NCBI RefSeq assembly: GCF_003367395.1
Contig: NZ_CP031417.1
Location: 4,799,501-4,863,500 of the forward strand
DNA length: 64,000 nucleotides
Direction: 5' to 3'
From: Pseudolabrys taiwanensis
GTDB lineage: Bacteria; Pseudomonadota; Alphaproteobacteria; Rhizobiales; Xanthobacteraceae
Shown: positions 49,038 to 61,826 of the stretch, piece by piece
Layout of the letters: every line of letters starts with the position of its first letter
Position numbering within the stretch: position 1 is the stretch's first letter
Translations under genes and position numbers: made by a program
The notes under the pieces: model-generated
Database searches by the model: none
What the model was told of the DNA's origin: nothing
The model's input: the letters and a program-made list of their open reading frames with translations, nothing else

Positions 49038-50246
49038 CTAGACGGGGAACACGAGGGTTTCTCGGCTCGGCGTCGCTTCCTGCTCCGGTGCCCGGCGCCC
49101 TTGCAGTTTCTGTGCCGTGAATGCCGCCGCGATGCGGCGGCGAATGCGCACCATGTCGCGATCCGGCGACAGCAGCATTTCGTTGGCGCGCGATTCAACG
49201 AGATCGCCACCGACAGACGCCATCAGCCGATCTTCGGCCGAGGTCTTGAGTTGCCGCGGCTTCACGACCTTTTCGAAATGCTGCTTCAGATGTGTGCGTT
49301 CGCTCTCGGTCTCCGCGCGCCATGCGGCATAACGGAACATGCGCGTCTGCGTGTAGGAGATCGGCACCTGAAACAGCCGCGACACGTATGGCGCGGCATT
49401 GTCGACGGGACGCAACGCGTTGGTGATCAGCCCCGGCAGGTTGAACCGTTCGCCGCGCAACGGCGCGAGCTTGTGGCCGTGTTCGAGGTGATTGCCCTCG
49501 AGGTCGACGGAGATGCCGCGCAGACCGTGACCGTCGGTTTCCACGATGCGGACGCGCCGGTCGGCGAGCGGGATGGAAGCGCGCTTGGCGTTGCCGTCAT
49601 TGCCTTTGAGCTGGGTGACGACATCGTTGTCGAGATACTGCATCACCGCGTCGTGCTGCTGCGATTCAACGTGCAGTGTGACCGCGTGATAGGCATCGCT
49701 GCCGTCCACGACGAGCAGCCAGTTGGCGTCCCAGACTTCGGTCGGCAGCCAGAAGTGCACGAACTTGTCGTCGGCGAAGAGTTCTTCCGGAAGGCTTTGT
49801 TCGATCGGCGGCGCCGGAAAGGCTTTCTCGTCGCCGAGATAGGCCCACACCATGCCGCCGACTTCCGCCGCCTTGTAGGCCCGCACGCACAGCTTCTGTT
49901 GGATGCCCGCATTGGGTTGCTGCTCCCAGGGGATCAGCGTGCAATCGCCGGAGCCGGCGAAGCGGAGGCCGTGATAGGCGCATTGCAATTCGTCGCCGAA
50001 GACGCGGCCGATCGAGAGCTTGACGTAGCGGTGCGGGCAGCGGTCGAACAGGACCTGCGGGGCGCCTTTGGAGTCGCGGAAGACGACGAGGTCCTCGCCG
50101 AGGCAGGTGAGGCCGACGGGCTGGCCTTGCGGCAGTTCGGCGCTGTGCATGATCGGGTACCAGTAGTTCCGGAGACCAAGCTCCAGGCCCGCGGGTACGT
50201 CGCGGACGAGTTCGGAAAGGCGCTGGTTCTGCGCGGCTTCGGCCAT
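49038..50246 (-). CDS. Rieske-type aromatic-ring oxygenase, alpha subunit (orphan)
   Basis: The 402-residue protein has the Rieske 2Fe-2S motif C70-x-H72 (DRCPHRY) and C89-x2-H92 (QCAYHGL). The mononuclear iron ligands appear as D181, D184, H187 and H192 (DxxDxxHx4H; N is more usual at the first site). It oxidises an aromatic or related substrate with O2 and electrons from a reductase. It has no ferredoxin or reductase next to it; the VanB-type reductase at 55757 could serve. The LysR gene 120 bp upstream on the same strand may control it. It could be a ring-hydroxylating or demethylating enzyme; substrate is not known. Confidence 0.85.
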   Translation of the reverse strand: MAEAAQNQRLSELVRDVPAGLELGLRNYWYPIMHSAELPQGQPVGLTCLGEDLVVFRDSKGAPQVLFDRCPHRYVKLSIGRVFGDELQCAYHGLRFAGSGDCTLIPWEQQPNAGIQQKLCVRAYKAAEVGGMVWAYLGDEKAFPAPPIEQSLPEELFADDKFVHFWLPTEVWDANWLLVVDGSDAYHAVTLHVESQQHDAVMQYLDNDVVTQLKGNDGNAKRASIPLADRRVRIVETDGHGLRGISVDLEGNHLEHGHKLAPLRGERFNLPGLITNALRPVDNAAPYVSRLFQVPISYTQTRMFRYAAWRAETESERTHLKQHFEKVVKPRQLKTSAEDRLMASVGGDLVESRANEMLLSPDRDMVRIRRRIAAAFTAQKLQGRRAPEQEATPSRETLVFPV

Positions 50247-50366
50247 GGGATCCCCTGACGTCGTTCGTGTTGGCGCCGCGGCCGACGACGCCGCAGACGT
50301 TCTTTGGAATGACTCGAGGCTATGCGCGCGGGGCGGCGGAGCTCAAATCCGCGGGCCTCATAAGCT

Positions 50367-51317
50367 TCATGACCGAGGTTCATGTTCCCGGCGCCGGCCC
50401 TCCCACACCGCCCCGTTCCCCCGGAAAAGCTTCACGAATGCTCGACGCAGCCACCTGTTGGCCGGGTCGCGATGAAATCGCTCGTGCCAATAAATCTTAA
50501 GATCATACTTCGGCAGCGGTATCGGCGACGGCATGACGTTGAGCGGCAAGCGCTTCGCGAACGCATTGGCGAGGCCCGCCGGCATGATCGCGACGAGATC
50601 GGAGTCCGCGAGCAACATCGGAAGCACGACGAAGTCGGGGATGTTGAGCTGTACGAAACGCTGTCCCGCGTGCTTATGCAGGGCCTGTTCAATCACTGCA
50701 TGCGCCATGCCGCTCGGATCGGCAATGGCATGCTCGGCATTCAAGAACGCCGCCAAAGACATGCCCGCTTGGAACAAAGGATGTTCCGCACGCGCAACGC
50801 AGACGTACTGCGCTCTATAGAGCAGGCTTTGATGAAAGCCCGAGGTGAGATTGGTGAAGAAGCCAATCGCAAGATCCACCTCGCCCGCAGCAAGCGCGTG
50901 GCGCGCACGCTCAGTGGGGACCTGATGAACCTTCAGTGAAGCGCGCGGAGCCTCGCGGCTCAGTAGCGATATGAGCTGCGGCAGAAAGGCCAACTGTCCG
51001 ACGTCGTTCAGGTAGATATTGAAGCGACGCGTCGCCGTGACAGGGTCGAAACCATGCTCTGTTGCAAGGCCTTCCGTTAGGCTCTCCAGCCCTTTCTGCG
51101 CCGCTTTGCTCAGTCGTGCGCCGAAGGGTGTCGGCGTTACACCGCCGCCGCTGCGCACGAAGAGCGAGTCTCCGACCTGCTTGCGCAGCTTAGCGAGGGC
51201 ATGGCTCGCTGCCGATTGAGTGATGCCGATCCTTGCCGCTGCAGCGGACAGATTGTTCGTCTCCGCCAGCGAAGCAAGCAGCCGCCACTGTGTCATATCG
51301 ATGCCGTCGAGCAACAT
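50367..51317 (-). CDS. LysR-family transcriptional regulator
   Basis: The 316-residue protein has an N-terminal LysR HTH: MTQWRLLASLAETNNLSAAAARIGITQSAASHALAKLRKQVGDSLFVRSGGG (residues 8-60). The effector-binding part follows (QVPTERARHALAAGEVDLAIGFF). Closest plan is of the NodD/LinR-like group that acts on aromatic catabolic genes, judging by the ITQSAASHAL turn. It stands upstream of the orphan Rieske gene on the same strand and divergent to the TRAP operon, so either or both may be targets. An ATG nine codons inside the listed one is also possible. Confidence 0.9.
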   Translation of the reverse strand: MLLDGIDMTQWRLLASLAETNNLSAAAARIGITQSAASHALAKLRKQVGDSLFVRSGGGVTPTPFGARLSKAAQKGLESLTEGLATEHGFDPVTATRRFNIYLNDVGQLAFLPQLISLLSREAPRASLKVHQVPTERARHALAAGEVDLAIGFFTNLTSGFHQSLLYRAQYVCVARAEHPLFQAGMSLAAFLNAEHAIADPSGMAHAVIEQALHKHAGQRFVQLNIPDFVVLPMLLADSDLVAIMPAGLANAFAKRLPLNVMPSPIPLPKYDLKIYWHERFHRDPANRWLRRAFVKLFRGNGAVWEGRRREHEPRS

Positions 51318-51668
51318 GGGGCGACGCTATACCGCAATATCCGGGTTGAGAAGCAATCGGAGGATGCGACCGAGTGTTGAAGTGCCTCGGCGAGGACGAT
51401 GAACCTCGCGGCTCTCATCCGTGCATAAGATCATGTTGTAGCCCTTGCTCGCGGGCGCCGGTTGCTGGTGCCGGCATGTGAATGCCGACCTGTGCGTCGC
51501 ACCATCATTGACGAAATCTTTTGCAGCGCATGCCCAATTTTGACCCTAGACAGCCCGGCGCCTCGTAAGATTAGATAGCAATCAATGTAAATGCCGATGA
51601 ACGGTTACGAATAAAACTAACATCAGCAAATTTGGCGCTCCAAAAGGCGCGCCGGCTAGGGGAGCTGC
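51318..51668. other. 351-bp divergent promoter region of lysR and TRAP operon
   Basis: The region has no coding frame of interest. It holds the 22-base operator-like sequence at 51572-51593 (listed separately), possible promoter elements TAGACA (51547) and TTAGAT (51571, spacer 18), and a purine-rich ribosome-binding site AGGGGAG before the dctP start. Next to lysR lies a T-rich segment of about 60 bases. Confidence 0.55.
51572..51593. promoter_or_regulatory. MarR-type operator candidate (site 1, TRAP promoter)
   Basis: TAGATAGCAATCAA (51572-51585) followed by TGTAAATG. All 22 bases occur again at 54648-54669. It matches the perfect palindrome TAGATTGCAATCTA at 58931 at 12 of 14 positions. 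It lies about 76 bp before the dctP start. Confidence 0.7.
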
Positions 51669-52736
51669 ATGATTATCGAGACTTGGTGTCGGCTGCGGGC
51701 CGGCATGACGGCGTTCGCGTTGCTGGCCACCATGGTCGCTGGCTCAACTTCCGAGCTGCGCGCCGACGAGGTTCGGCTGAAGCTGCACACTTACGTGCCG
51801 TTGAGCGTGCCGCCCATGCAGCATCTGCTCAAGCCCTGGGCCGATCATTTGTCGCAAGCCTCCGGCGGCAAGCTGAAGATCGATATATATCCCCTGATGC
51901 AGCTTGGTGGCCGGCAGCCGCAACTTGTCGATCAGGTCAAGGACGGCGTCGTCGATATGGTGTGGACGCTGCTCGGCGCGACGCCGGGTCGGTTCCCCCG
52001 CACCGAGGTGTTCGAGCTGCCGTTCACGCATCGCAGTACGCTGGCGACCAACCTGGCGTTGCGCGACATGTTGCCGAAAGAGCTCGCCGACGACTTCAAG
52101 GACTATAAAATTCTGCTGCTTCACGTTCACGCGGGCAACGCGATCCACATGAAGGACGCCGCCGTGGAGCGATTCGACCAGTTCAAGCTGAAAAAAATAC
52201 GTTCGCCCGGTCAGATCTCGACCGAGATGCTTGAGGCGATTGGCGCCACGCCCATCGCGACAACATTGACGGACGTGTCGTCCATGATGTCGCGTGGCGT
52301 GATAGACGGTGCGTTGCTGCCGTTCGACGTCCTGCCGTCGATCAAGCTCAACAGTCTTGTCCGCTATCACGTCCTGATGGCCGGCGATCAGCGGCCAACG
52401 ACCGCGGTCTTCATGCTGGCGATGAACAAGAAGAGTTACGAGTCGCTGTCGCCGGATCTGCAGAAACTGATCGATGATAGTACCGGCATCGAAATGTCGA
52501 AGAAGGCGGCCGAGGTGATGGATCGCTTCGACCAACTCGGAATGAAGGCCTCGAAGGACGGAGGTGCGACCTTCATCACGTTGTCGGCGGAAGAGACTGC
52601 GAAGGTTCGCCAAGCGTCGGAAAGCGTGGTTGCAGCCTGGGCCAAGAAGCTGGACGCCGCTGGCGGCAATGCTCAACAGGTGCTTTCACGGGCACAAGAG
52701 TTGGGTGCGAAGTATTCGCCGAAGGCTGGACAATGA
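51669..52736 (+). CDS. dctP: TRAP transporter periplasmic binding protein (DctP)
   Basis: The 355-residue protein has a signal peptide (MTAFALLATMVAGSTSELRA). The DctP fold shows HTYVPLSVPPMQHLLKPWADHL, GGKLKIDIYPLMQLGGRQPQL, an arginine-containing KKIRSPGQISTEMLEAIGATPI (the conserved Arg that pairs with substrate carboxylates), and DVSSMMSRGVIDGALLPF. This predicts an anionic ligand, such as an aromatic acid. It is first in the dctPQM operon and overlaps dctQ by four bases (ATGA). The promoter carries operator site 1. Confidence 0.92.
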   Translation: MIIETWCRLRAGMTAFALLATMVAGSTSELRADEVRLKLHTYVPLSVPPMQHLLKPWADHLSQASGGKLKIDIYPLMQLGGRQPQLVDQVKDGVVDMVWTLLGATPGRFPRTEVFELPFTHRSTLATNLALRDMLPKELADDFKDYKILLLHVHAGNAIHMKDAAVERFDQFKLKKIRSPGQISTEMLEAIGATPIATTLTDVSSMMSRGVIDGALLPFDVLPSIKLNSLVRYHVLMAGDQRPTTAVFMLAMNKKSYESLSPDLQKLIDDSTGIEMSKKAAEVMDRFDQLGMKASKDGGATFITLSAEETAKVRQASESVVAAWAKKLDAAGGNAQQVLSRAQELGAKYSPKAGQ

Positions 52737-53272
52737 GCGGAGAGTGGCTGTCCCCGCCGGCCACCACGCTGCAGGGAACGGGCCGTGTGCTCAATGCGCT
52801 CTGCCTGTACTTTGCCTTGGCCGGTGGCGTTGTGCTTGTCGGCATGATCCTGATGGACGTCGCCAGCATCGTCGGACGCGTGCTGGTGGCGCGCACCGTG
52901 CCTGGGGACTTCGAGCTTATCGAGATCGGTACGGCGGTCACCGCGCTGCTTTTTCTCCCCTACTGCCAGATCAAGCGGCAGAACGTTGCGGTGGATCTTC
53001 TGGTTAAGGATCATCACACGCGATTGATGCCGCTCTGCAGCGCCATCGGCAATGTCCTGCTCGGGGCATTCGCCGCCGTGGCGGCGTGGCGTTCGGTCGA
53101 TGGCGGTCTCGATTTGTGGCACGGCGGCGATATCACGAGCACGCTGAAGCTTCCCCTGTGGCCCGTGTTCAGCGTGGTGGTTCTCGTCTTCGTCCTTCTG
53201 GCGATCGTGTGCGCCTACAACGCAGTCTGCGACATCGCAGCGCTGCGCCGCCGTGACCCCGTTTCAATCTAA
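52733..53272 (+). CDS. dctQ: TRAP transporter small permease (DctQ)
   Basis: The 179-residue membrane protein has four hydrophobic segments (LYFALAGGVVLVGMILMDV; FELIEIGTAVTALLFLPYCQI; MPLCSAIGNVLLGAFAAVAAW; LPLWPVFSVVVLVFVLLAIVC). The pattern ELIEIG...LPYCQIKRQNVAVDLL is the family signature. Its start overlaps the dctP stop; the large permease starts nine bases past its stop. It forms the small helper of DctM. Confidence 0.9.
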   Translation: MSGEWLSPPATTLQGTGRVLNALCLYFALAGGVVLVGMILMDVASIVGRVLVARTVPGDFELIEIGTAVTALLFLPYCQIKRQNVAVDLLVKDHHTRLMPLCSAIGNVLLGAFAAVAAWRSVDGGLDLWHGGDITSTLKLPLWPVFSVVVLVFVLLAIVCAYNAVCDIAALRRRDPVSI

Positions 53273-53281
53273 GTGATTCAT

Positions 53282-54607
53282 ATGACGCCCGTTGAGACCG
53301 GCCTGATCGGCATCGCCATTCTGCTCGTCATGCTCTTCCTGCGCATCCCGATCGGGGTGGCGATGATATCGGTCGGTCTTGGCGGATACGCCGCCCTCAA
53401 CGGCGTCGGCAATACACTCAACTATATCAAGACCGCTACCTATTGGCGCTTTTCGACCTATGACCTCTCTGTCATCCCGATGTTTCTCCTGATGGGGGAG
53501 TTCGCGGCTGGCGCCGGCTTGAGCCGAAGCTTGTTCAGAGCCGCCGCCGCAATGGTCGGGCACCGCAAGGGCGGCATTGCGATTTCGGTGATCGCGGCAT
53601 GTGCTGCCTTCGGCGCGATCTGCGGCTCGTCGCTCGCCACGGCGGCGACAATGACTCGCGTCTCCCTGCCCGAGTTCTCGCGATATAAATACAGCCCCGC
53701 TTTGGCCACCGGTTCTCTTGCGGCCGGCGGAACACTCGGCATCCTCATTCCGCCGTCGATCGCACTGGTGATCTACGCGATCATCGTCGAGGGCAACATT
53801 GTTTCGATGTTTGCCGCTGCCTTGATCCCAGGGCTATTGGCGGCTTGCGGTTATGTCGTCGCCACACGGGTCTATGTCTGGCTCAATCCGGAAGCCGGTC
53901 CGGCCGGTGAGCGCATCGGCGGGCGGGAGCGGGTGCTAGCTCTCATAGAAACGTGGCCGATCGCCTTGATCTTCTTTCTGGTTATCGGCGGCATCTATCT
54001 TGGCTGGTTCACGCCGACCGAAGCTGCGGCCATCGGCGCGTTCGGTACGGGTGCCGTCGCGGTATGGCGTGGCGGCATGCGTTGGGAAGGATTCATCGAA
54101 GCTGTTCTGCGCACGGCGTCGGCGACGGCCATGATCTTCCTCATCGTTCTCGGTGCGGAGTTCTTAAACTCCTTCTTCGCCCTGACACGGATATCGATGG
54201 AAGCGGCGGACTGGATCACCACAAGCTCGCTCTCTCCCTTCATGGTCGTTGCCGTGATCATGGTTATCTACCTGATCCTCGGCTGCGTCATGGATAGCCT
54301 GTCCATGATCTTGCTCACCTTGCCGATCTTCTGGCCGATATTGTCGACGATGGACTTCGGTATGGACCCGGAGCACATGAAGATGTGGTTCGGCGTGCTG
54401 GTGCTTGTGGTGGTCGAGTTCGGATTGATCACGCCGCCGGTCGGCTTGAACATAGCGATTATCGGCTCGATGGCTCCCCACATCGCCACGCGCGATATCT
54501 ATCGCGGCGTCGTGCCGTTCATCGTGTCCGATATCGTTCGGATCGCATTGCTGTTCTTCTTCCCGATCATCTCGCTCGCGCTGCCGCTTCTGCTCGGCGC
54601 GCGCTAA
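53282..54607 (+). CDS. dctM: TRAP transporter large permease (DctM)
   Basis: The 441-residue inner-membrane protein has about twelve hydrophobic segments: LIGIAILLVMLFLRIPIGVAM, then SVIPMFLLMGEFAAGAG (family motif), GTLGILIPPSIALVIYAIIVE and GLITPPVGLNIAIIGSMAP (second repeat). It carries the sodium-dependent transport step. ATG 53282 was taken; a GTG three codons earlier is possible. With dctP and dctQ it makes a complete importer, feeding the catabolic genes that follow. Confidence 0.93.
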   Translation: MTPVETGLIGIAILLVMLFLRIPIGVAMISVGLGGYAALNGVGNTLNYIKTATYWRFSTYDLSVIPMFLLMGEFAAGAGLSRSLFRAAAAMVGHRKGGIAISVIAACAAFGAICGSSLATAATMTRVSLPEFSRYKYSPALATGSLAAGGTLGILIPPSIALVIYAIIVEGNIVSMFAAALIPGLLAACGYVVATRVYVWLNPEAGPAGERIGGRERVLALIETWPIALIFFLVIGGIYLGWFTPTEAAAIGAFGTGAVAVWRGGMRWEGFIEAVLRTASATAMIFLIVLGAEFLNSFFALTRISMEAADWITTSSLSPFMVVAVIMVIYLILGCVMDSLSMILLTLPIFWPILSTMDFGMDPEHMKMWFGVLVLVVVEFGLITPPVGLNIAIIGSMAPHIATRDIYRGVVPFIVSDIVRIALLFFFPIISLALPLLLGAR

Positions 54608-54620
54608 CGCCCGCAGTGCT

Positions 54621-54669
54621 TTGACAGAGGCTTGTCGGGCGGATAAATAGATAGCAATCAATGTAAATG
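54621..54669 (+). promoter_or_regulatory. promoter of the Rieske oxygenase gene with operator site 2
   Basis: TTGACA (54621-54626) and TAAATA (54644-54649) are 17 bases apart, a good sigma-70-type promoter. The 22-base sequence also found at 51572-51593 begins at 54648, so it covers the end of the -10 box and the likely start site. Occupation by a repressor would block RNA polymerase. The ATG is 16 bases further on, with AGGAG upstream. Confidence 0.75.
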
Positions 54670-54684
54670 AACTAGGAGCCGACC

Positions 54685-55719
54685 ATGTACCTCAGAAATC
54701 ACTGGTACGTCGCCGCGCGGACGGAAGAGGTGGGCCGCGGCCTCCTGCGCCGGCTTATTCTGAATGAGCCGGTCTTGCTCTATCGCACAAAGGCGGGCGA
54801 GGCCGTCGCGATGGAGGATCGCTGCTGTCACCGGAGCGTGCCGCTGTCGATCGGCAAACTGGTCGATGACAACGTGCAGTGCGGCTATCACGGGCTTGTT
54901 TTCGATCGCGACGGACGTTGCGTGTTCATGCCGGGTCAAGACAAGATTCCGGCCGCGGCGAAAGTGAAGGCGTATCCGCTGATTGAACGGTGGGGCATGA
55001 TTTGGCTCTGGATGGGCGAGGGTAAAGGTGATCCCGCGCTCATGCCGGACTTCGGCATTGTCGATCGGCCGGGTTGGGCTGCGCTCGGGGACCGGGTGCA
55101 CCTGAAGGCAAACTACCTGCTCGGCATCGATAACATTCTCGACCTGAGTCACCTGTCCTACGTGCACGAACGGACCATTGGCACCGTCGACGTCGCGCGC
55201 ACGGCGGTGCGGACGACGCGTGAAGGCGACATGGTGAAGGTGACGCGGTGGATGATGGACGTTCCGCCGCCGCCGATGTTCGCCAAGTTCGGGCTGACCG
55301 GCAACATCGATCGTTGGCAAATCGTGACGGCCGCGCCGCCTTGCTATCTGTGGCTCGAAGTCGGTGGCGCCAAAACCGGCACCGGCGCCGCCGAGGGCAA
55401 TCGCAGCGAGGGCATCGAGCGCTGGAACTTGAACTGCATCACGCCGGAAACGGACAAGTCTGCCCACATGTTCTGGACCGAAGTACGCAATTTTCAGGTC
55501 GACGATGCCGCCGCCGGCGAGATGCTGAAGAGCCAGATGGTGCTGACTCTGCAAGAGGACGCCGACGTGCTGGAAGTGCAACAGCGCACGATGGACGAAA
55601 TGCCGGACGCGCCGACGATTGACATTACGTTCGACGCCGGCTCGATCCAGTTCCGCCGTGCGGTTAAGCGGCTGCTCGAGGAGCAGGCCAACAGCGCCAG
55701 AGAGAAGGCGTTGGCGTGA
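54685..55719 (+). CDS. Rieske oxygenase of VanA/DdmC (aromatic O-demethylase) type
   Basis: The 344-residue protein starts MYLRNHWYVAARTEEV, a start shared with VanA and DdmC. The Rieske site is C47-x-H49 and C66-x2-H69 (QCGYHGLVF). The iron site is N150, D153, H156, H161 (NxxDxxHx4H). It ends without a long C-terminal extension. VanA-class enzymes O-demethylate or hydroxylate aromatic acids. Note Cys 48 between C47 and H49. The reductase follows 38 bp later. The exact substrate is open; O-demethylation of a methoxylated acid is one option. Confidence 0.92.
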   Translation: MYLRNHWYVAARTEEVGRGLLRRLILNEPVLLYRTKAGEAVAMEDRCCHRSVPLSIGKLVDDNVQCGYHGLVFDRDGRCVFMPGQDKIPAAAKVKAYPLIERWGMIWLWMGEGKGDPALMPDFGIVDRPGWAALGDRVHLKANYLLGIDNILDLSHLSYVHERTIGTVDVARTAVRTTREGDMVKVTRWMMDVPPPPMFAKFGLTGNIDRWQIVTAAPPCYLWLEVGGAKTGTGAAEGNRSEGIERWNLNCITPETDKSAHMFWTEVRNFQVDDAAAGEMLKSQMVLTLQEDADVLEVQQRTMDEMPDAPTIDITFDAGSIQFRRAVKRLLEEQANSAREKALA

Positions 55720-55756
55720 ACGTCCCCAGCGGCGGTGCTTTGGAGCTTGGCAAATA

Positions 55757-56758
55757 ATGGTTGCTATGAGCTTGGAACAGTCGACGTCCACTCTCGGCCA
55801 TGCGGCCCAATCTGGGCTCATCGAGGTCGTCGTCGTGCGTCGTGCGGTGGTCGCGGATGGCGTCGTGCTGCTCGATCTGCATCGTAGGGACAGCGGACAT
55901 TTGCCGGTTTTCGCGGCAGGGGCTCATATCGATCTTCACCTCACTGGCGGCCTTGTACGTCAGTATTCGCTTTGCGGCGATCCGGCGGACCCCGCGTGCT
56001 ATCGGCTGGCCATAAAGTTGGAGGCGTCCTCGCGGGGTGGCTCCGCGGCGGTCTGGGCCGTCGCGGAGGGTGAGCGGCTTTTTATCGGTGCGCCGCGCAA
56101 CAACTTCAGATTGGCCGAGGGGGCGGGGCCGTTCGTTCTTGTCGCCGGCGGCATCGGGGTCACGCCCCTTCTGGCCATGGCGCACGAGTTGGAGCGTCGG
56201 AAGGCCGATTATCACTTGCACTATTGCGTCCGGAATGCCGATGGGGCCAAGGGGCTGGCAGCGCTCGGCGCGGCCCCGTTGATGGGACGCATTTCAGTGC
56301 ATGCTGACGATGACCCGAAGACACGACTCGATCTTGCTTCGGTGCTGCAGCCGCGCGGCCATGAAGCGCGTCTTTATCTGTGCGGTCCGGCCGCCTTCAT
56401 GGATCTCGTCGTCGGTCGTGCCCTGGCTGCGGGCTGGCCTTCCGACAACATCCACCTGGAACGCTTTGCAGCGACAGTCGATCAGGCGGGCGATGCCTTT
56501 ACCGTGACGGCGCAACGGAGTGGGGTGACCGTTACGGTCGGCCCCGGCGTGTCGATCGCGGAAGCGTTGACGCGGGCAGGGGTGGCCGTGCCGCTCTCGT
56601 GTGAACAGGGTGTGTGCGGCACCTGCCTGCTCGACGTGATCGAGGGCATTCCCGACCATCGCGACAGCTTTCTGACAGACAACGAGAAGGCCGCCAATGC
56701 GCAGCTTGCGGCGTGTTGTTCTCGGGCCAAGACCGCGCGGCTCGTGCTCGATATTTGA
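55757..56758 (+). CDS. oxygenase reductase, VanB/phthalate-dioxygenase-reductase type
   Basis: The 333-residue protein has an N-terminal ferredoxin-reductase domain (FMN/NAD-binding: RQYSLCGDP near 70, FVLVAGGIGVTPLLAM near 128, RLYLCGPAAFM near 205) and a C-terminal plant-type 2Fe-2S domain. Its cysteines lie in LSCEQGVCGTC (about residues 282-290) and near 318 (AACC). It passes NADH electrons to the Rieske oxygenase next to it and perhaps to the other Rieske protein at 49038. Reductases of this order belong to VanB and PDR. ATG 55757 was chosen; a second ATG three codons in also fits. Confidence 0.92.
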   Translation: MVAMSLEQSTSTLGHAAQSGLIEVVVVRRAVVADGVVLLDLHRRDSGHLPVFAAGAHIDLHLTGGLVRQYSLCGDPADPACYRLAIKLEASSRGGSAAVWAVAEGERLFIGAPRNNFRLAEGAGPFVLVAGGIGVTPLLAMAHELERRKADYHLHYCVRNADGAKGLAALGAAPLMGRISVHADDDPKTRLDLASVLQPRGHEARLYLCGPAAFMDLVVGRALAAGWPSDNIHLERFAATVDQAGDAFTVTAQRSGVTVTVGPGVSIAEALTRAGVAVPLSCEQGVCGTCLLDVIEGIPDHRDSFLTDNEKAANAQLAACCSRAKTARLVLDI

Positions 56759-56853
56759 CGCGGTGACAAGCTCGGGGTTTTCTTTGCAGTCGGGCTTAAG
56801 CGTCTTGTCAGCGGGGAAACCTGGCGGGTAAAAGAACGACAGGGCGCGTCAAC

Positions 56854-57432
56854 GTGACATCGAGATATGTCCATGTTGTTCGGGCCGAACATCGGACCGT
56901 ACACAGGATGGCAAAGTCCCGCACCTTGAACCCCGCGCGTCGGGTCCTCGAGTACAAGCTCGATGACAGCGTCGGATTCATGATCACAGTTACTGAGCGC
57001 AGGCTAAAGCCGCTTTTCCGGGAATGCGTCGCGGCCGAGGGGTTCGCCTACGGGATGTGGTACTTCCTGCGTGTCCTCTTCGAGGAGGACGGTCTGACGC
57101 AGAAGGAGTTGAGCGAACGCGTTGGCATGATGCAGCCGACGACCGTGACGGCGCTGCGCGCCATGGAGCGAGACGGCTACGTTTCGATCAAGGAAGACAA
57201 GAAGGACAAGCGCCGTATGCGCATCTTCCTGACCGACGCGGGACGTCGCATCGGTTCGCGAATTCTTCCCATGCTGCGCCAAATCAACGACTTCGCGCTC
57301 AAGGACGTGACCGAGGAGGAGTTCAAGGTTCTCCGCAACGTTCTGCGCAAGATTAGGCACAACATCGATTCAGGCACTTTCAAGCCGGTGCGGCAGCCAC
57401 AGCGGCGGCCTTCGACCGCAAAGCGCGCCTAG
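56854..57432 (+). CDS. MarR-family transcriptional regulator
   Basis: The 192-residue protein carries a winged helix of the MarR type: WYFLRVLFEEDGLTQKELSERVGMMQPTTVTALRAMERDGYVSIKEDKKDKRRMRIFLTDAGRR, with a long basic C-terminal tail. It begins at GTG 56854 (AGGG eight bases before); ATG 56908 (MAKSRTLNPAR) is an equally likely start. It is the best candidate for the regulator that binds the three TAGAT-type palindromes. Its stop overlaps the amidase stop convergently (shared CTAG). No operator of that type was seen before its own start. Confidence 0.9.
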   Translation: MTSRYVHVVRAEHRTVHRMAKSRTLNPARRVLEYKLDDSVGFMITVTERRLKPLFRECVAAEGFAYGMWYFLRVLFEEDGLTQKELSERVGMMQPTTVTALRAMERDGYVSIKEDKKDKRRMRIFLTDAGRRIGSRILPMLRQINDFALKDVTEEEFKVLRNVLRKIRHNIDSGTFKPVRQPQRRPSTAKRA

Positions 57433-58841
57433 GCGAAGGCCGGGGCAGTGGCGGGCCAGGGGTGCCGGGCCTCGATCGCTTCGGCAAGCCGGAGCAAGGA
57501 TCGGTCGGCGCCGAACGCCGCGGCAAGCTGCATCCCAACCGGAAGAGGCGTTTCGATGTCGCCGATCGGGAGGCTGATGGCTGGGATGCCGGCGACATTG
57601 ACGAATGGCAGAAAAGTCGCGGCGCCCCGCGGTCCGGCATCTTTGCCGCCGATGACCTTGGGATAGGGCTCGGTCGTGCTCCAGGGGAAGCACGGCGAGG
57701 TGGGCGAAAGAAGGACGTCATAGCGTTCGAAGAGTTCGTCGAACTGCCGCCTGATGCGGTTGATGCTCTCGATGGCCTCGACATATTGGGCGGCCGAAAG
57801 CTTTGTTCCGCGATCGACCAAGCCTCGGATGGTCGGCGTCAACTCGGCGAGCGGCAGTGCGCTCGCCGTGACGGCCGCGGCGGTGCCGGCGCCGATAAGG
57901 GCCGACCAGATGGCCTCTATTTCCTCGAGCGAGAATGGCGCCGCGTCGCTAATCACGTCGTGCCCCATGTCCGAGAGACGACCGGCGGCCGTGTCGAGCG
58001 CGGCCGCGATTCGGTCATCAACGGGACTGCTGCCGACCGCACTAAAGTAAAGGATGCGCAGCGGTCTATCGCTGGGGGGGCGCGTTGCCGCGGGCAGAAG
58101 GCTCGTCGACGACGTACGGTCGTTGACGTGCGGCGCGGCGAGAACGTCGAGAGTCATACGGATGTCGGCGATGCTGCGGGCCATCGGCGCGACGACCTGG
58201 CAGTCTGACGTCGTGGTGGGGAAGAAGCTGCCGCGCGGGATCATGCCGTTTGAGGGACGCAATCCGACCGTGCCGGTGTAGGCCGCCGGCCGCCGGGCGG
58301 AGCCGCCGGCGTCGGTGGCCAGCGCCAACGGGCCAATGCCGGCCGCAAGCGCAGCCGCGGCTCCGCCGCTCGATCCGCCTGGCGTCAGACTCGTATCCCA
58401 AGGATTTCGGGTTGCGCCGAACAGCTCGTTGTCGGTGACGCCGGCAAGTGCGAGCTCGGGCAGATTTGTTTTCGCCCAGATCACTGCGCCAGCCGCGCGC
58501 AACAGCGCAACGGAAGGGTCATCGTGCGGCGCGATCCGATGCGCGAGGGCTTTGCTGCCCCAGGTGGCTTTCATGCCCTTAACGGCGAGGTTGTCTTTGA
58601 CGGTGACCGGAATTCCGTCGAGGGGACCGAGCGAACGCGCGTCTCGCCGCCGTCGATCGGATTGGCGGGCGGCGGCGCGCGCGGCATCGGCATCGACGTC
58701 GATGCAGGCATTCAGAGCCGGATGCAGTCGCGCATTGCGCGCCAGAACCGCATCGACAATCTCGAGCGCGCTGACCTGCTTCTGTTCAAGCAGCCTGCTC
58801 ATTTCCGAGGCGGATTTCTGCGCGACATCGTCGTGAGGCAT
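57429..58841 (-). CDS. amidase-signature family amidohydrolase
   Basis: The 470-residue enzyme has the full AS triad: K82 (VTVKDNLAV), S157 (GGSSGG, cis Ser) and nucleophile S181 (DAGGSARRPAA), with spacings of 75 and 24 residues identical to those in FAAH. The SLTPGGSSGGAAAALAAGIG region is the signature. It hydrolyses an amide to an acid and ammonia or amine; the substrate is open, though an aromatic or pathway amide is likely. ATG 58841 with AGGATG upstream was chosen; earlier in-frame starts lie in the shared divergent promoter. It faces ligA across the palindrome at 58931 and may be controlled with it. Confidence 0.92.
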   Translation of the reverse strand: MPHDDVAQKSASEMSRLLEQKQVSALEIVDAVLARNARLHPALNACIDVDADAARAAARQSDRRRRDARSLGPLDGIPVTVKDNLAVKGMKATWGSKALAHRIAPHDDPSVALLRAAGAVIWAKTNLPELALAGVTDNELFGATRNPWDTSLTPGGSSGGAAAALAAGIGPLALATDAGGSARRPAAYTGTVGLRPSNGMIPRGSFFPTTTSDCQVVAPMARSIADIRMTLDVLAAPHVNDRTSSTSLLPAATRPPSDRPLRILYFSAVGSSPVDDRIAAALDTAAGRLSDMGHDVISDAAPFSLEEIEAIWSALIGAGTAAAVTASALPLAELTPTIRGLVDRGTKLSAAQYVEAIESINRIRRQFDELFERYDVLLSPTSPCFPWSTTEPYPKVIGGKDAGPRGAATFLPFVNVAGIPAISLPIGDIETPLPVGMQLAAAFGADRSLLRLAEAIEARHPWPATAPAFA

Positions 58842-58907
58842 CTGACATCCTGTGATCGGATAGCGTTGTGGGGACCAGCTTTCGTACCTCAAAGGCGGCG
58901 GCATTGT

Positions 58908-58944
58908 TTGACTCTAAACGGCAAAATAACTAGATTGCAATCTA
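58908..58944 (+). promoter_or_regulatory. ligA promoter with perfect 14-bp palindrome (operator site 3)
   Basis: TTGACT (58908-58913), a 17-base spacer and TAGATT (58931-58936) form a plus-strand promoter. The -10 box is the first half of TAGATTGCAATCTA (58931-58944), a perfect palindrome. The other strand carries TTGCAATCTA, which may be part of the amidase promoter. The match to sites 1 and 2 is 12 of 14. Confidence 0.75.
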
Positions 58945-58981
58945 ACTAATTTCAGCGATCGCGGCTGTGGTGGAGGCATTC

Positions 58982-59296
58982 GTGGCAGGCTTCGAAGTCG
59001 AACGGTTCATCTTCGAGCTCAAGAAGGATGAGGCGCTCCAAGCCGCGCTGAAGGAGCGCGCCGCCGGCACATTCGAGGGCTTCGATCTCGATCCGGATGA
59101 ATTGGCGGCGTTGCGCGACGGCGATGTCGAGACGTTGTATCGGATGGGCGTGCACCCGCTTCTGCTCGCTCCCTATTCGCGTTACGCCGGCATCGCGCCT
59201 CCCGACTATCACAAGCGGCTCGACGTTCTGAAGGGCGTGCAGAAGTTCAACAGCGAACGGCGTTTCGCGAAGCCAGGGGAAAGCAATCATGGGTGA
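58982..59296 (+). CDS. ligA: extradiol dioxygenase small subunit (LigA type)
   Basis: The 104-residue protein is the small, non-catalytic partner of class III extradiol dioxygenases: FEVERFIFELKKDEALQAAL, LDPDELAALRDGDVETLYRMGVHPLLLAPYSRYAGI. GTG 58982 has TGGAGG five bases upstream; an earlier GTG at 58967 would place the ribosome-binding site inside the gene. Its end overlaps ligB by eight bases, so translation is coupled. Confidence 0.9.
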   Translation: MAGFEVERFIFELKKDEALQAALKERAAGTFEGFDLDPDELAALRDGDVETLYRMGVHPLLLAPYSRYAGIAPPDYHKRLDVLKGVQKFNSERRFAKPGESNHG

Positions 59297-60101
59297 GCTG
59301 GTTATGGCCGCGGCGATGAGCCACGCCCCCGGTATCGCGGCCTTCACCGAACGGGCGACCGAGGAGGAGCGCGCCGGATTCCTCGGCGCGGCGGCAGAGC
59401 TCCGCCAGGTTCTCGCGGATGCGAAGCCGGATCTGCTCGTCTTCCTGGCGCCGGATCATTTCACGAACTTCTTCGTCGACAAGATGCCGGCCTTCTGCAT
59501 CGGTGTGAACGAGGCTTATCAAGGACCGGTCGAGAAGTGGCTGCGTATCGAGAAGGGCAAGGTGAACGGCGCGCCCGATTTCGCCACCCAGTTGCTCGAA
59601 GAGGCGATGGACAGCGGCTTCGATCCGGCCTTCTCGCGCGGCCTGCAGCTCGAGCACAGCGTCATGGTGCCGATGAACCTGATCCGGCCTGAGCGCGATC
59701 TGCCGATCGTCTGGGTCATGGCCAATTGCCAGATTCCGCCGATGCCGTCGCTGAAGCGCTGCTATCAGTTCGGCGAGGTTCTCCGGAAGGTCATCGACGG
59801 CCGTAACGAACGTGTCGCCGTCATCGGTACGGGCGGGCTATCGCATTCGCCGGGCGCCGCAGAAGCTTATGATCTGGACCCCGAGTTCGATCAGGAGTTT
59901 CTGGCGCTGCTCGACAGCGACAACCCGAAAGCCATCCTCGACATCCCGGCCTCGCGACTCGATCGCGCCGGCTTCGGCACTTGGGAAGTAAGGCTCTGGG
60001 CGATCGCCCTCGGTGCGACCAAGGGGCGTCCCGCGCGCACGTTGAGCTATGCTCCCATCAAGGCGTGGCAGACGGGCTGCGCCGTAAGCGTCTTCCGATA
60101 A
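59289..60101 (+). CDS. ligB: class III extradiol ring-cleavage dioxygenase catalytic subunit (LigB type)
   Basis: The 270-residue protein has all expected residues: Fe ligands H12 (AMSHAPGI), H57 (FLAPDHFTNFF) and probably E233 (TWEVRLW), and the catalytic base H186 (GTGGLSHSP). A second His at 123 (LEHSVMVP) matches the substrate side. Features such as APDHFTNFF...MPAFCIGV recall MhpB as well as LigB, so catechol-type substrates with an adjacent carboxyl or alkyl group are possible. It opens the ring next to the hydroxyls. It is second in the operon after ligA and before the SBP-fold gene. Confidence 0.92.
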   Translation: MGELVMAAAMSHAPGIAAFTERATEEERAGFLGAAAELRQVLADAKPDLLVFLAPDHFTNFFVDKMPAFCIGVNEAYQGPVEKWLRIEKGKVNGAPDFATQLLEEAMDSGFDPAFSRGLQLEHSVMVPMNLIRPERDLPIVWVMANCQIPPMPSLKRCYQFGEVLRKVIDGRNERVAVIGTGGLSHSPGAAEAYDLDPEFDQEFLALLDSDNPKAILDIPASRLDRAGFGTWEVRLWAIALGATKGRPARTLSYAPIKAWQTGCAVSVFR

Positions 60102-60115
60102 GTAGGACTGCGCTT

Positions 60116-61048
60116 GTGACGGATCGCTCGCGCGTGCGTTTGGCTATCGGTCTTCGTTCGACCGCACAAAGCCTGTCCCTGGTAGGGCTGGCCGCCGATA
60201 CGTTCGCGCAATGCGGTATCGATCTTGAAATTGCGCAGATCGAGACCGCGGGACCGGCCGGTATCGACGGCCTGTTGCAGGGCCGCTGGGAGTTTGCCGA
60301 ATTCGGCGCGATCCCGGTCGTGCAGTGGGCGATGGAGGGCAAGGATCCCGTCATCCTCATGGCGGCTGAGCCAGTGTCGGCGCTTTACATCCTCGGCGGT
60401 CCGGGCGTGTCCACGGCCAATGATCTCGTGGGCGGCCGGATCGGTGTACTCACGCGCGCCGGGCAAACAGGCTACAGCGCGCTGGAGATGCTCGACCGGT
60501 GGGATTTGCGGGACGGCGTCGATCTTGCGGAGTTGATGAAGTATCCGGCAATTTACGACGGACTTCTGCGCGGCGACATTCGCGGCGGCGTGTTGACGGC
60601 GGACTATCGCTTCGCGGCGCCGGAGGGGGCGTTGTCGGTTCTGGCCGACCTCGGCAAGGAGTTCGGCTTTCAGGGACCGCTCCTGGCAACCACACGGCAA
60701 TTTCTGGCGGCCAACCGCGACATCGTCGAACGCGTAGTCGAAGGCTACTCCGGGGCCATTCGCGCGTTTAAGACCCGGCCGGACATTGCAGTTCCCGTCC
60801 TTCAGAAGCACCTGCCGTTCGTCGATGTGGATGGTATCGCGCGGATTCACGCATTCTATGCCGCCCGGTTCTCCGACATTCCGCGACCGTCGGTCGCCGG
60901 CCTCGAAGCTGTGATTGAATCGTGCAGCCAGAAGGCAGCGGGTGAGCGCCTCCTTGCCGTGGGCGACGTCTACGAGCCTGGCGTGCTTGACGCTCTGGAA
61001 CGTCGCGGCATTTTTGACGCAAATGTCTCTTCAACAATGAAGGTCTAA
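60116..61048 (+). CDS. NMT1/SBP-fold protein without signal peptide
   Basis: The 310-residue protein resembles the NMT1/taurine-type binding fold: VRLAIGLRSTAQSLSLVGLAADTFAQ, WEFAEFGAIPVVQWAMEGKD, and VGGRIGVLTRAGQTGYSALEML. No hydrophobic leader exists; the sequence begins MTDRSRVRLAIGL. There are no ABC permease or ATPase genes near. Leaderless members of this fold include 4,5-dihydroxyphthalate decarboxylase (Pht5). It could be such an enzyme in a ring-cleavage pathway or a cytoplasmic ligand binder. GTG 60116 with AGGA before it was chosen because the longer frame overlaps ligB. Operon member between ligB and an SDR gene. Confidence 0.8.
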   Translation: MTDRSRVRLAIGLRSTAQSLSLVGLAADTFAQCGIDLEIAQIETAGPAGIDGLLQGRWEFAEFGAIPVVQWAMEGKDPVILMAAEPVSALYILGGPGVSTANDLVGGRIGVLTRAGQTGYSALEMLDRWDLRDGVDLAELMKYPAIYDGLLRGDIRGGVLTADYRFAAPEGALSVLADLGKEFGFQGPLLATTRQFLAANRDIVERVVEGYSGAIRAFKTRPDIAVPVLQKHLPFVDVDGIARIHAFYAARFSDIPRPSVAGLEAVIESCSQKAAGERLLAVGDVYEPGVLDALERRGIFDANVSSTMKV

Positions 61049-61049
61049 C

Positions 61050-61826
61050 GTGGATCTTGGAATCAAAGGTCGGACGGCGTTGGTCACTGCCGCAAGCCGC
61101 GGCATCGGCCGTGCCTGTGCCCTCAGTCTGGCGGCCGAAGGCTGCAATCTCGCAATTTGTGCGCGCGGCGACGAAGAGCTGCAGAAGACGGCGGCAGAGA
61201 TTCGCGCGCAGACCGGCGTTCAGGTGCTCGCGCACACCGCCGATCTCAGTTCTCTCGACGATCTGCAGAAGCTCGTCGCCAAAACCGAGAGCACCTTCGG
61301 CGGCATCGATATTCTGGTTGCGATTTGCGGCTCGCCCAAGCGAGGATCGTTCGACGACATCACCGACGAGGATTTGACGAATGCCTTCGCGGCGACGGTG
61401 CTGTCGCTCGCCCGGCTGGTTCGCCTCGTCACGCCGTCCATGCGGGCGCACAAATGGGGACGCGTCGTAACGGTTCAGTCGCGGTCGGTGCGCGAGACCA
61501 TTCCCGAACTGTTTGCATCGAATTCCACCCGTCCCGGCGCGGCGGGCCTCATGAAGAACATGTCGCGCGAACTCGCGGCCGATGGCGTTCTATTCAACAC
61601 CATCGTGCCGGGACGCATCATGACGGACCGTTTTCTCGGCGGTGTCGAGAGTTCGAAGCTCGGCGCCGAGGCGTACCTGAAGTCCAAGATCGGTGACGTG
61701 CCGGTTCAGCGCTTTGGGACCCCGGAGGACATTGCCGGGGTTGTCACCTTCCTCGCTTCGGAAAAGGCGGCCTACGTCAATGGTGCGGCCATTCCTGTCG
61801 ATGGCGGTGTCATTCGCGGAATCTAA
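61050..61826 (+). CDS. atypical SDR-fold protein, YxxxK absent
   Basis: The 258-residue protein has the SDR N-terminus (ALVTAASRGIGRACALSL) and the end AAIPVDGGVIRGI. The active region reads TVQSRSVRETIPELFASNSTRPGAAGLMKN: where YxxxK is expected there is SNSTRPG. This is the pattern of a known subgroup of SDR-like proteins with a lost tetrad, often called BKR-like. It may still bind NAD(P) and act with another residue, or be regulatory. GTG start overlaps nearly the stop of the gene before (one-base gap). It is the last gene in the ligAB operon. Confidence 0.85.
   Translation: MDLGIKGRTALVTAASRGIGRACALSLAAEGCNLAICARGDEELQKTAAEIRAQTGVQVLAHTADLSSLDDLQKLVAKTESTFGGIDILVAICGSPKRGSFDDITDEDLTNAFAATVLSLARLVRLVTPSMRAHKWGRVVTVQSRSVRETIPELFASNSTRPGAAGLMKNMSRELAADGVLFNTIVPGRIMTDRFLGGVESSKLGAEAYLKSKIGDVPVQRFGTPEDIAGVVTFLASEKAAYVNGAAIPVDGGVIRGI

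Follow-up and report, generated by a model that had tools for sequence, protein, structure and literature searches.

Do the three promoters of a presumed aromatic-degradation gene cluster in Pseudolabrys taiwanensis answer to one regulator, and if so, to which one? We studied this question for a stretch of 64,000 nucleotides (in the following "the window"; contig NZ_CP031417.1, positions 4,799,501 to 4,863,500), where a 14-bp inverted repeat of the form TAGATWGCAATCWA is located upstream of the genes dctP (uptake), vanA (Rieske oxygenation) and ligA (ring cleavage). The three palindromes are probably operators of a single repressor, for which the MarR-family protein encoded within the same cluster (56908-57432) is the most likely candidate.

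Three palindromic sites confined to one cluster

An initial annotation of the window had placed the motif at 51572, 54648 and 58931, i.e., in front of dctP, vanA and ligA. It further described a 22-base identity of the first two sites, a perfect palindrome at the third, and an overlap of sites 2 and 3 with the edge of a -10 box and a whole -10 box, respectively. All of this could be verified: the three coordinates are correct, sites 1 and 2 have the 22 bases TAGATAGCAATCAATGTAAATG in common without exception, site 3 reads TAGATTGCAATCTA, and the promoters in question are TTGACA-17-TAAATA and TTGACT-17-TAGATT. The respective elements are

51572..51585, + strand: predicted operator site 1, TAGATAGCAATCAA; dctP about 84 bp downstream; ortholog in the relative G001 at L036:6102
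54648..54661, + strand: predicted operator site 2, TAGATAGCAATCAA; vanA about 24 bp downstream; overlaps the end of the predicted -10 element; ortholog in G001 at L036:9310
58931..58944, no strand: predicted operator site 3, TAGATTGCAATCTA, perfect palindrome; bases 1-6 are the predicted ligA -10 element; ortholog in G001 at L036:13589
54621..54649, + strand: predicted vanA promoter TTGACA-17-TAAATA, 9/12 consensus bases; absent from a stricter scan
58908..58936, + strand: predicted ligA promoter TTGACT-17-TAGATT, 9/12 consensus bases

The left half-site TAGAT is present in 3/3 sites, the right half-site ATCAA in sites 1 and 2 only, and the dyad can be written as T-N12-A. All three inverted repeats are found within about 5.3 kb of marR. 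Within the window, we counted 6 strand matches with at most two mismatches, compared to 0.27 expected; none of 100 shuffles gave 6. No copy at this level precedes the second Rieske gene or the LysR gene (49038-51317).

The source genome consists of one contig with 5,593,641 bases, for which the reversed pattern served as control. Here, TAGATWGCAATCWA is found at exactly three places, all inside 7.4 kb, and outside of these sites the 5.59-Mb genome holds no one-mismatch copy. That is, a scattering of the motif at random and at similar density, which would have spoken against a regulon, is not what the genome search gave, and no further regulon members are found by the same motif with up to one mismatch genome-wide. 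When two mismatches are allowed, we obtained 9 matches on the forward and 11 on the reverse strand (6/20 being the three sites) versus 10 and 9 for the control, such that two-mismatch copies are at control level. Among 199 relatives, TAGATNGCAATCWA occurs in 5 genomes, own included, with one match in each of the other four.

Conservation of the sites in relatives

The closest comparison is provided by G001 (a 3.8-Mb assembly, 83% complete; cluster locus L036). Its cluster is syntenic, covering the second Rieske gene, LysR, the TRAP (tripartite ATP-independent periplasmic) transporter genes, vanAB, marR, amidase and ligAB through to the dehydrogenase, with 60-83% protein identity (second Rieske gene 77%, LysR 71%). 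A matrix built from the window only ranks the G001 dctP, vanA and ligA promoters as the top three places in 20 kb. At these three scores, sequences of the same dinucleotide make-up (100 in total) give 0, 0 and 0.04 random hits per 20 kb. A search of the G001 assembly for TAGATNGCAATCTA with up to one mismatch gives two of these sites and no other place. The aligned spacers of the window and G001 have diverged except for conserved blocks at the sites, i.e., the palindrome is kept at the same promoters in 3/3 cases. As judged from sequence, nothing speaks more strongly for a function of the palindromes as operators than this conservation, and the shared operator is almost certainly real and conserved.

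A chance origin of the motif was also considered; it is rejected on the basis of the window shuffles, the genome-wide uniqueness and the G001 matrix scan. A contig scan with two peptide patterns retrieved one relative, L037, whose sites equal those of G001. As a side observation, the G001 dctP site (L036:6098-6119) is embedded in a wider inverted repeat TAGATAG-N8-CTATCTA; this operator may be spaced differently.

In a second genus, represented by G132, the gene order is altered (marR, amidase, ligAB, NMT1-like, dehydrogenase, vanA, vanB). LigB of this locus is 73% identical, while no match to the TRAP and LysR proteins of the window is present in the 19.5-kb stretch. Upstream of both ligA and vanA, there is a site with three mismatches that is preceded by a TTGACC element. 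A GntR-type gene about 5 kb from the G132 marR is outside the shared genes. Furthermore, vanB is followed in G132 by an MFS transporter gene (L039:1-1113, cut by the locus end), with TRAP genes in the window and G001; possibly, the uptake system has been swapped within the same pathway.

Placement of the sites at predicted promoters

Besides the two promoters listed above, site 1 shows a weaker fit (8/12). Taking the sites from the window, G001 and G132 together, a -35/-10 fit of at least 8/12 is found for 7/8 sites compared to 65/2000 random window positions. The motif itself contributes part of the -10 score, while the -35 elements (TTGAC in 6/8) are independent of it. Given its site on the -10 region, a bound protein is expected to block the polymerase, which points to repression. 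The same rule linking operator position to repression is given in PMC13118786.

The MarR protein as the candidate binder

Two regulators are encoded close to the sites:

56908..57432, + strand: MarR-family regulator, proposed binder; PF01047; frame open from GTG 56854
50367..51317, - strand: LysR-type regulator; PF00126 and PF03466; divergent from dctP; also part of the G001 cluster, without a match in the G132 locus (19.5 kb)

According to the initial annotation, the MarR gene starts at 56854. Its frame is indeed part of the cluster, but the start may be ATG 56908 rather than GTG 56854. As to the annotated regulon, it is strongly supported that the uptake, oxygenation and ring-cleavage genes share one set of operators, given the genome uniqueness and the G001 conservation, while MarR as its binder is something we infer. 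The protein reaches 37.6 bits for PF01047 (cut-off 24.6), and its orthologs in G001 and G132 34.5 and 43.5 bits. These orthologs are situated within the same cluster and are 71-75% (G001) and 64% (G132) identical. Among the window genes compared, MarR is the sole regulator matched in both clusters. Because of this, and because its relatives adjoin palindromes of two 5-bp half-sites with a 4-bp spacer (5-N4-5; see below), MarR is the best candidate, and from conserved linkage and family logic it probably binds the three sites.

None of the NCBIfam MarR equivalogs (HpaR, SlyA, OhrR, BilQ and others) was reached: the best score is 52 versus a cut-off of 240 bits, with BilQ at 49.4 vs. 125 and HpaR at 46 vs. 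121.2. Since no equivalog cut-off is passed, the window MarR is not equated with a named regulator. Orthologs of the window MarR at E<=1e-34 are present in 3/391 genomes of the family (own included), 1/397 of the order (own only), 6/385 of the class (own and five at 41-44% identity) and 1/398 of the phylum (own only), where the four genome sets are overlapping samples. LigB at E<=1e-60 is found in three of 150 relatives, namely G000 (own), G001 and G150 (37% identity); G132 is evidently outside this set. No genome that encodes the oxygenase and the dioxygenase but lacks this MarR was found among the 150 relatives, own included.

The following mechanism would be in line with these data. As long as no inducer is present, the 14-bp inverted repeat TAGAT-N4-ATCTA would be occupied by a MarR dimer, each half-site being contacted by one winged helix. 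With the -10 region covered in this way, RNA polymerase would be blocked at the promoters of dctPQM, vanAB(-marR) and ligAB with the NMT1-like and short-chain dehydrogenase genes. A pathway substrate or intermediate would release MarR, and the three steps (uptake, oxygenation by the Rieske enzyme, ring cleavage) would be switched on together. marR itself may be co-transcribed behind vanAB, which would make its autoregulation indirect. Within this scheme, the negative sign of control, the aromatic nature of the ligand and the operon structure are inferred.

Palindromes next to distant MarR relatives

Distant relatives of the window MarR (32-41% identical) were collected as 22 loci (L010-L031) of about 3.4 kb each, where 21/22 stem from the window's own family group. 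In 13/22 of these loci, a palindrome CTTAG-N4-CTAAG is located nearby (within about 1.5 kb); the 13 loci are related to one another and do not represent 13 independent events. The same palindrome is found in 0/19 comparison loci (about 3 kb each, chosen for other patterns; three are the window's own sites). From sequence, the MarR clade thus seems to go with palindromes of 5-bp half-sites and a 4-bp spacer, which is the geometry of the window sites.

In the own genome, CTTAG-N4-CTAAG is present once (G000:C1:3927736-3927749; L052:8736), with a MarR paralog at a distance of about 1.3 kb. This copy forms part of the perfect 18-bp palindrome TTCTTAGATATCTAAGAA and is flanked by a LigXa-type Rieske gene on one side and a GFO/IDH/MocA dehydrogenase gene on the other; close copies are observed near the MarR genes of many relatives. 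Three CTTAG-N4-CTAAG sites each are found in the 20-kb loci of G010 (L049:10495, 15292, 15399) and G008 (L050:10560, 15378, 15481). Profile search of the G008 cluster identifies reductase, dehydrogenase, NMT1-like and Rieske genes beside the MarR gene, a combination resembling what we take to be a phthalate-type pathway. Rieske oxygenase genes are present in both relative loci searched with profiles (L050, L052).

Within the recognition helix, 23/27 distant relatives (L010-L031, L040-L044), including all 13 with the CTTAG palindrome, carry E at a position that is occupied by Q in the 3 cluster orthologs. This difference is a possible cause of the changed half-site. More speculatively, the MarR clade could guard Rieske-oxygenase clusters with fixed 5-N4-5 geometry, the half-site having moved from CTTAG to TAGAT along with the E-to-Q helix change, such that paralogs of the same genome run separate aromatic pathways without cross-talk; we consider this scenario as a whole rather doubtful.

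An inverted repeat near the core of the window sites, GATTGCATGCAATC, is observed at L046:16248 and L048:5661. The two genomes in question are related and have MarR genes of 43-44% identity, from which the repeat is 4-6 kb away.

Points against a MarR regulon

Several observations weigh against MarR as the common repressor. The marR promoter itself has no site with up to two mismatches in the window scan. The relatives' palindromes support the geometry of the sites and not their sequence, since the half-site is CTTAG and not TAGAT. Moreover, the exact CTTAG palindrome was not found in 9/22 relative loci within the approx. 3.4 kb examined for each, nor in the 20-kb loci L046, L047, L048 and L051 (34-44% identity; relative loci additional to L045, L049, L050 and L052). 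The G132 sites are only suggestive, because the number of three-mismatch matches in G132 is at background level (222 and 232 vs. 213 and 216 for the control). With regard to promoters, the G001 dctP site combines the poorest fit (7/12) with the weakest site, and a stricter promoter scan of the region returns 1 site (ligA) compared to 2.4 in shuffles. Finally, the looser half-site pattern TWGAT-N4-ATCWA is not confined to the cluster: it is found at 17 genome places, the three sites included, versus 2 for the reversed control, and of the 14 others, the pair inspected is located beside a CRP/FNR-like gene.

Other proteins and origins

The divergent LysR-type regulator (50367-51317) could bind the sites instead and activate the cluster. 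Its gene adjoins site 1 and is kept beside dctP in G001 (71% identical). LysR activators usually bind near -65 and their classical dyad is T-N11-A. The sites are on the -10 region, i.e., away from this usual position, and with T-N12-A they deviate from the dyad. The candidate is further weakened by the lack of a LysR match in the 19.5-kb G132 locus, though the vanA and ligA sites seem to be kept there (not above background by sequence). Overall, we regard control by LysR as unlikely.

A CRP/FNR-family protein encoded elsewhere might also be the binder, given that TAGAT-N4-ATCWA resembles the FNR/FixK box TTGAT-N4-ATCAA. Sites 1 and 2 are one specified position away from this box, and the 17 genome places of the looser pattern fit as well. 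On the other hand, the full TAGATWGCAATCWA is nowhere else in the genome, site 3 and the G001 sites are further from TTGAT, and the left half is TAGAT at all three window sites. An FNR activator is also ill-suited to a -10 position, and the window genes included in the G001 and G132 comparison do not comprise a CRP/FNR gene. Since the sites deviate from the FNR box in a conserved manner and are placed on the -10 region, this explanation is less likely, and we give it little credence. The pair mentioned above consists of FNR-like boxes 44 bp apart (L066:3460 and 3504; G000:C1:4264460 and 4264504), located between the CRP/FNR-like gene and a 912-aa frame that looks like two fused NarK nitrate transporters (both genes named by eye).

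A recent 22-bp duplication as the origin of sites 1 and 2, which their 22 identical bases might suggest, with site 3 alike by chance, is extremely improbable, since all three sites have G001 counterparts at the same promoters, the G001 matrix scan makes a duplication very unlikely, and the downstream TGTAAATG is not shared in G001, such that the conserved part is the palindrome.

Known systems and implications

A repressor such as the proposed MarR has known parallels. CouR, BadR and AcsR act in aromatic or alicyclic catabolism via inverted-repeat operators at several promoters (PMC4737184, PMC9795900, PMC13118786).

CouR of Rhodococcus jostii RHA1 is a MarR-type repressor with an inverted repeat at four cou promoters of aromatic acid catabolism; its box overlaps promoter elements and is needed for binding in gel shifts (PMC4737184). 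As described there, the box ATTGA-N5-TCAAT covers the -35 element, in contrast to TAGAT-N4-ATCTA over the -10 region in the window, and one box serves the divergent couN-couR promoters, whereas marR of the window has no site. We do not take CouR as an ortholog, because its structure matches the window MarR at E=1.9e-5 only.

BadR is a MarR-type repressor of a catabolic cluster in Rhodopseudomonas palustris and Aromatoleum (PMC9795900, PMC13118786). Its site ATTTGAT-N4-ATCAAAT (PMC13118786) shows the N4 spacing of the window sites, while PMC9795900 gives CAATnnATTG, unlike the former description. The effector in Aromatoleum is cyclohexane carboxylate-CoA.

AcsR of Corynebacterium glutamicum is a MarR-type protein that represses the extradiol dioxygenase gene c23o, where catechol disrupts DNA binding; like the proposed regulator, it additionally acts on the gene of a substrate-binding protein for uptake. 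In contrast to the window system, its site is AATTTA-N9-14-TAAATT, it activates the uptake gene and it belongs to a different phylum (all PMC13118786). PMC13273656 was dropped as a parallel, since it concerns an IclR-family regulator.

The regulatory principle is thus already well known, and the window system would be a fresh instance of an ordinary kind. No paper of the open-licence PMC literature searched contains TAGATTGCAATCTA, and none of the matches listed is a report on this cluster, as judged by title and abstract start. What the locus offers is a firm prediction open to test, namely three promoters under one repressor, for an aromatic pathway that is uncharacterised and belongs to a little-studied soil lineage. 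Once the ligand is identified, the operator would be a potential biosensor part. Furthermore, the TAGAT sites and the relatives with CTTAG-N4-CTAAG provide a natural series on how MarR proteins change their DNA specificity.

Genes of the cluster

Beside the two regulators, the cluster comprises the following genes:

51669..52736, + strand: dctP, TRAP substrate-binding protein; PF03480, 130.9 bits
52733..53272, + strand: dctQ, TRAP small permease; PF04290, 67.4 bits
53282..54607, + strand: dctM, TRAP large permease; PF06808, 276.4 bits
54685..55719, + strand: vanA, VanA-type Rieske oxygenase; PF19112 VanA_C and PF00355 Rieske
55757..56758, + strand: vanB, VanB-type reductase; PF00111 Fer2 above cut-off, DmmA-like_N and NAD_binding_1 just under cut-off
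57429..58904, - strand: amidase; PF01425, 339.9 bits; divergent from ligA across site 3, likewise in G001 and G132
58982..59296, + strand: LigA-like dioxygenase subunit; start inferred from G001 comparison, open from 58967
59289..60101, + strand: LigB, class III extradiol dioxygenase catalytic subunit; PF02900, 138.2 bits
60119..61048, + strand: NMT1/THI5-like protein, probable ligAB operon member; PF09084, 21.6 bits (cut-off 20.5); kept in G001 and G132
61050..61826, + strand: short-chain dehydrogenase, probable ligAB operon member; PF13561, 157.7 bits; kept in G001 and G132

With 20.8 bits, LigA stays under the PF07746 cut-off of 25.3 and is 72% identical in G001. Its place before ligB and the conservation in G001 support the assignment at the sequence level. 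The same frame (58967-59296) also gives weak sub-cut-off matches to Os1348-family NHLP and Frankia peptide profiles.

The nearest solved structure for LigB is gallate dioxygenase, while the VanA-type oxygenase is closest to an unnamed Rieske protein, with dicamba O-demethylase second. Plasmid matches are all below 60% identity (best among the matches listed: LigB 38%, VanA 48%). The substrate is fixed neither by the nearest structures nor by the plasmid matches.

By eye, the NMT1/THI5-like protein (60119-61048) is without an obvious signal peptide; possibly, it is a cytosolic decarboxylase-like enzyme and not part of a transporter.

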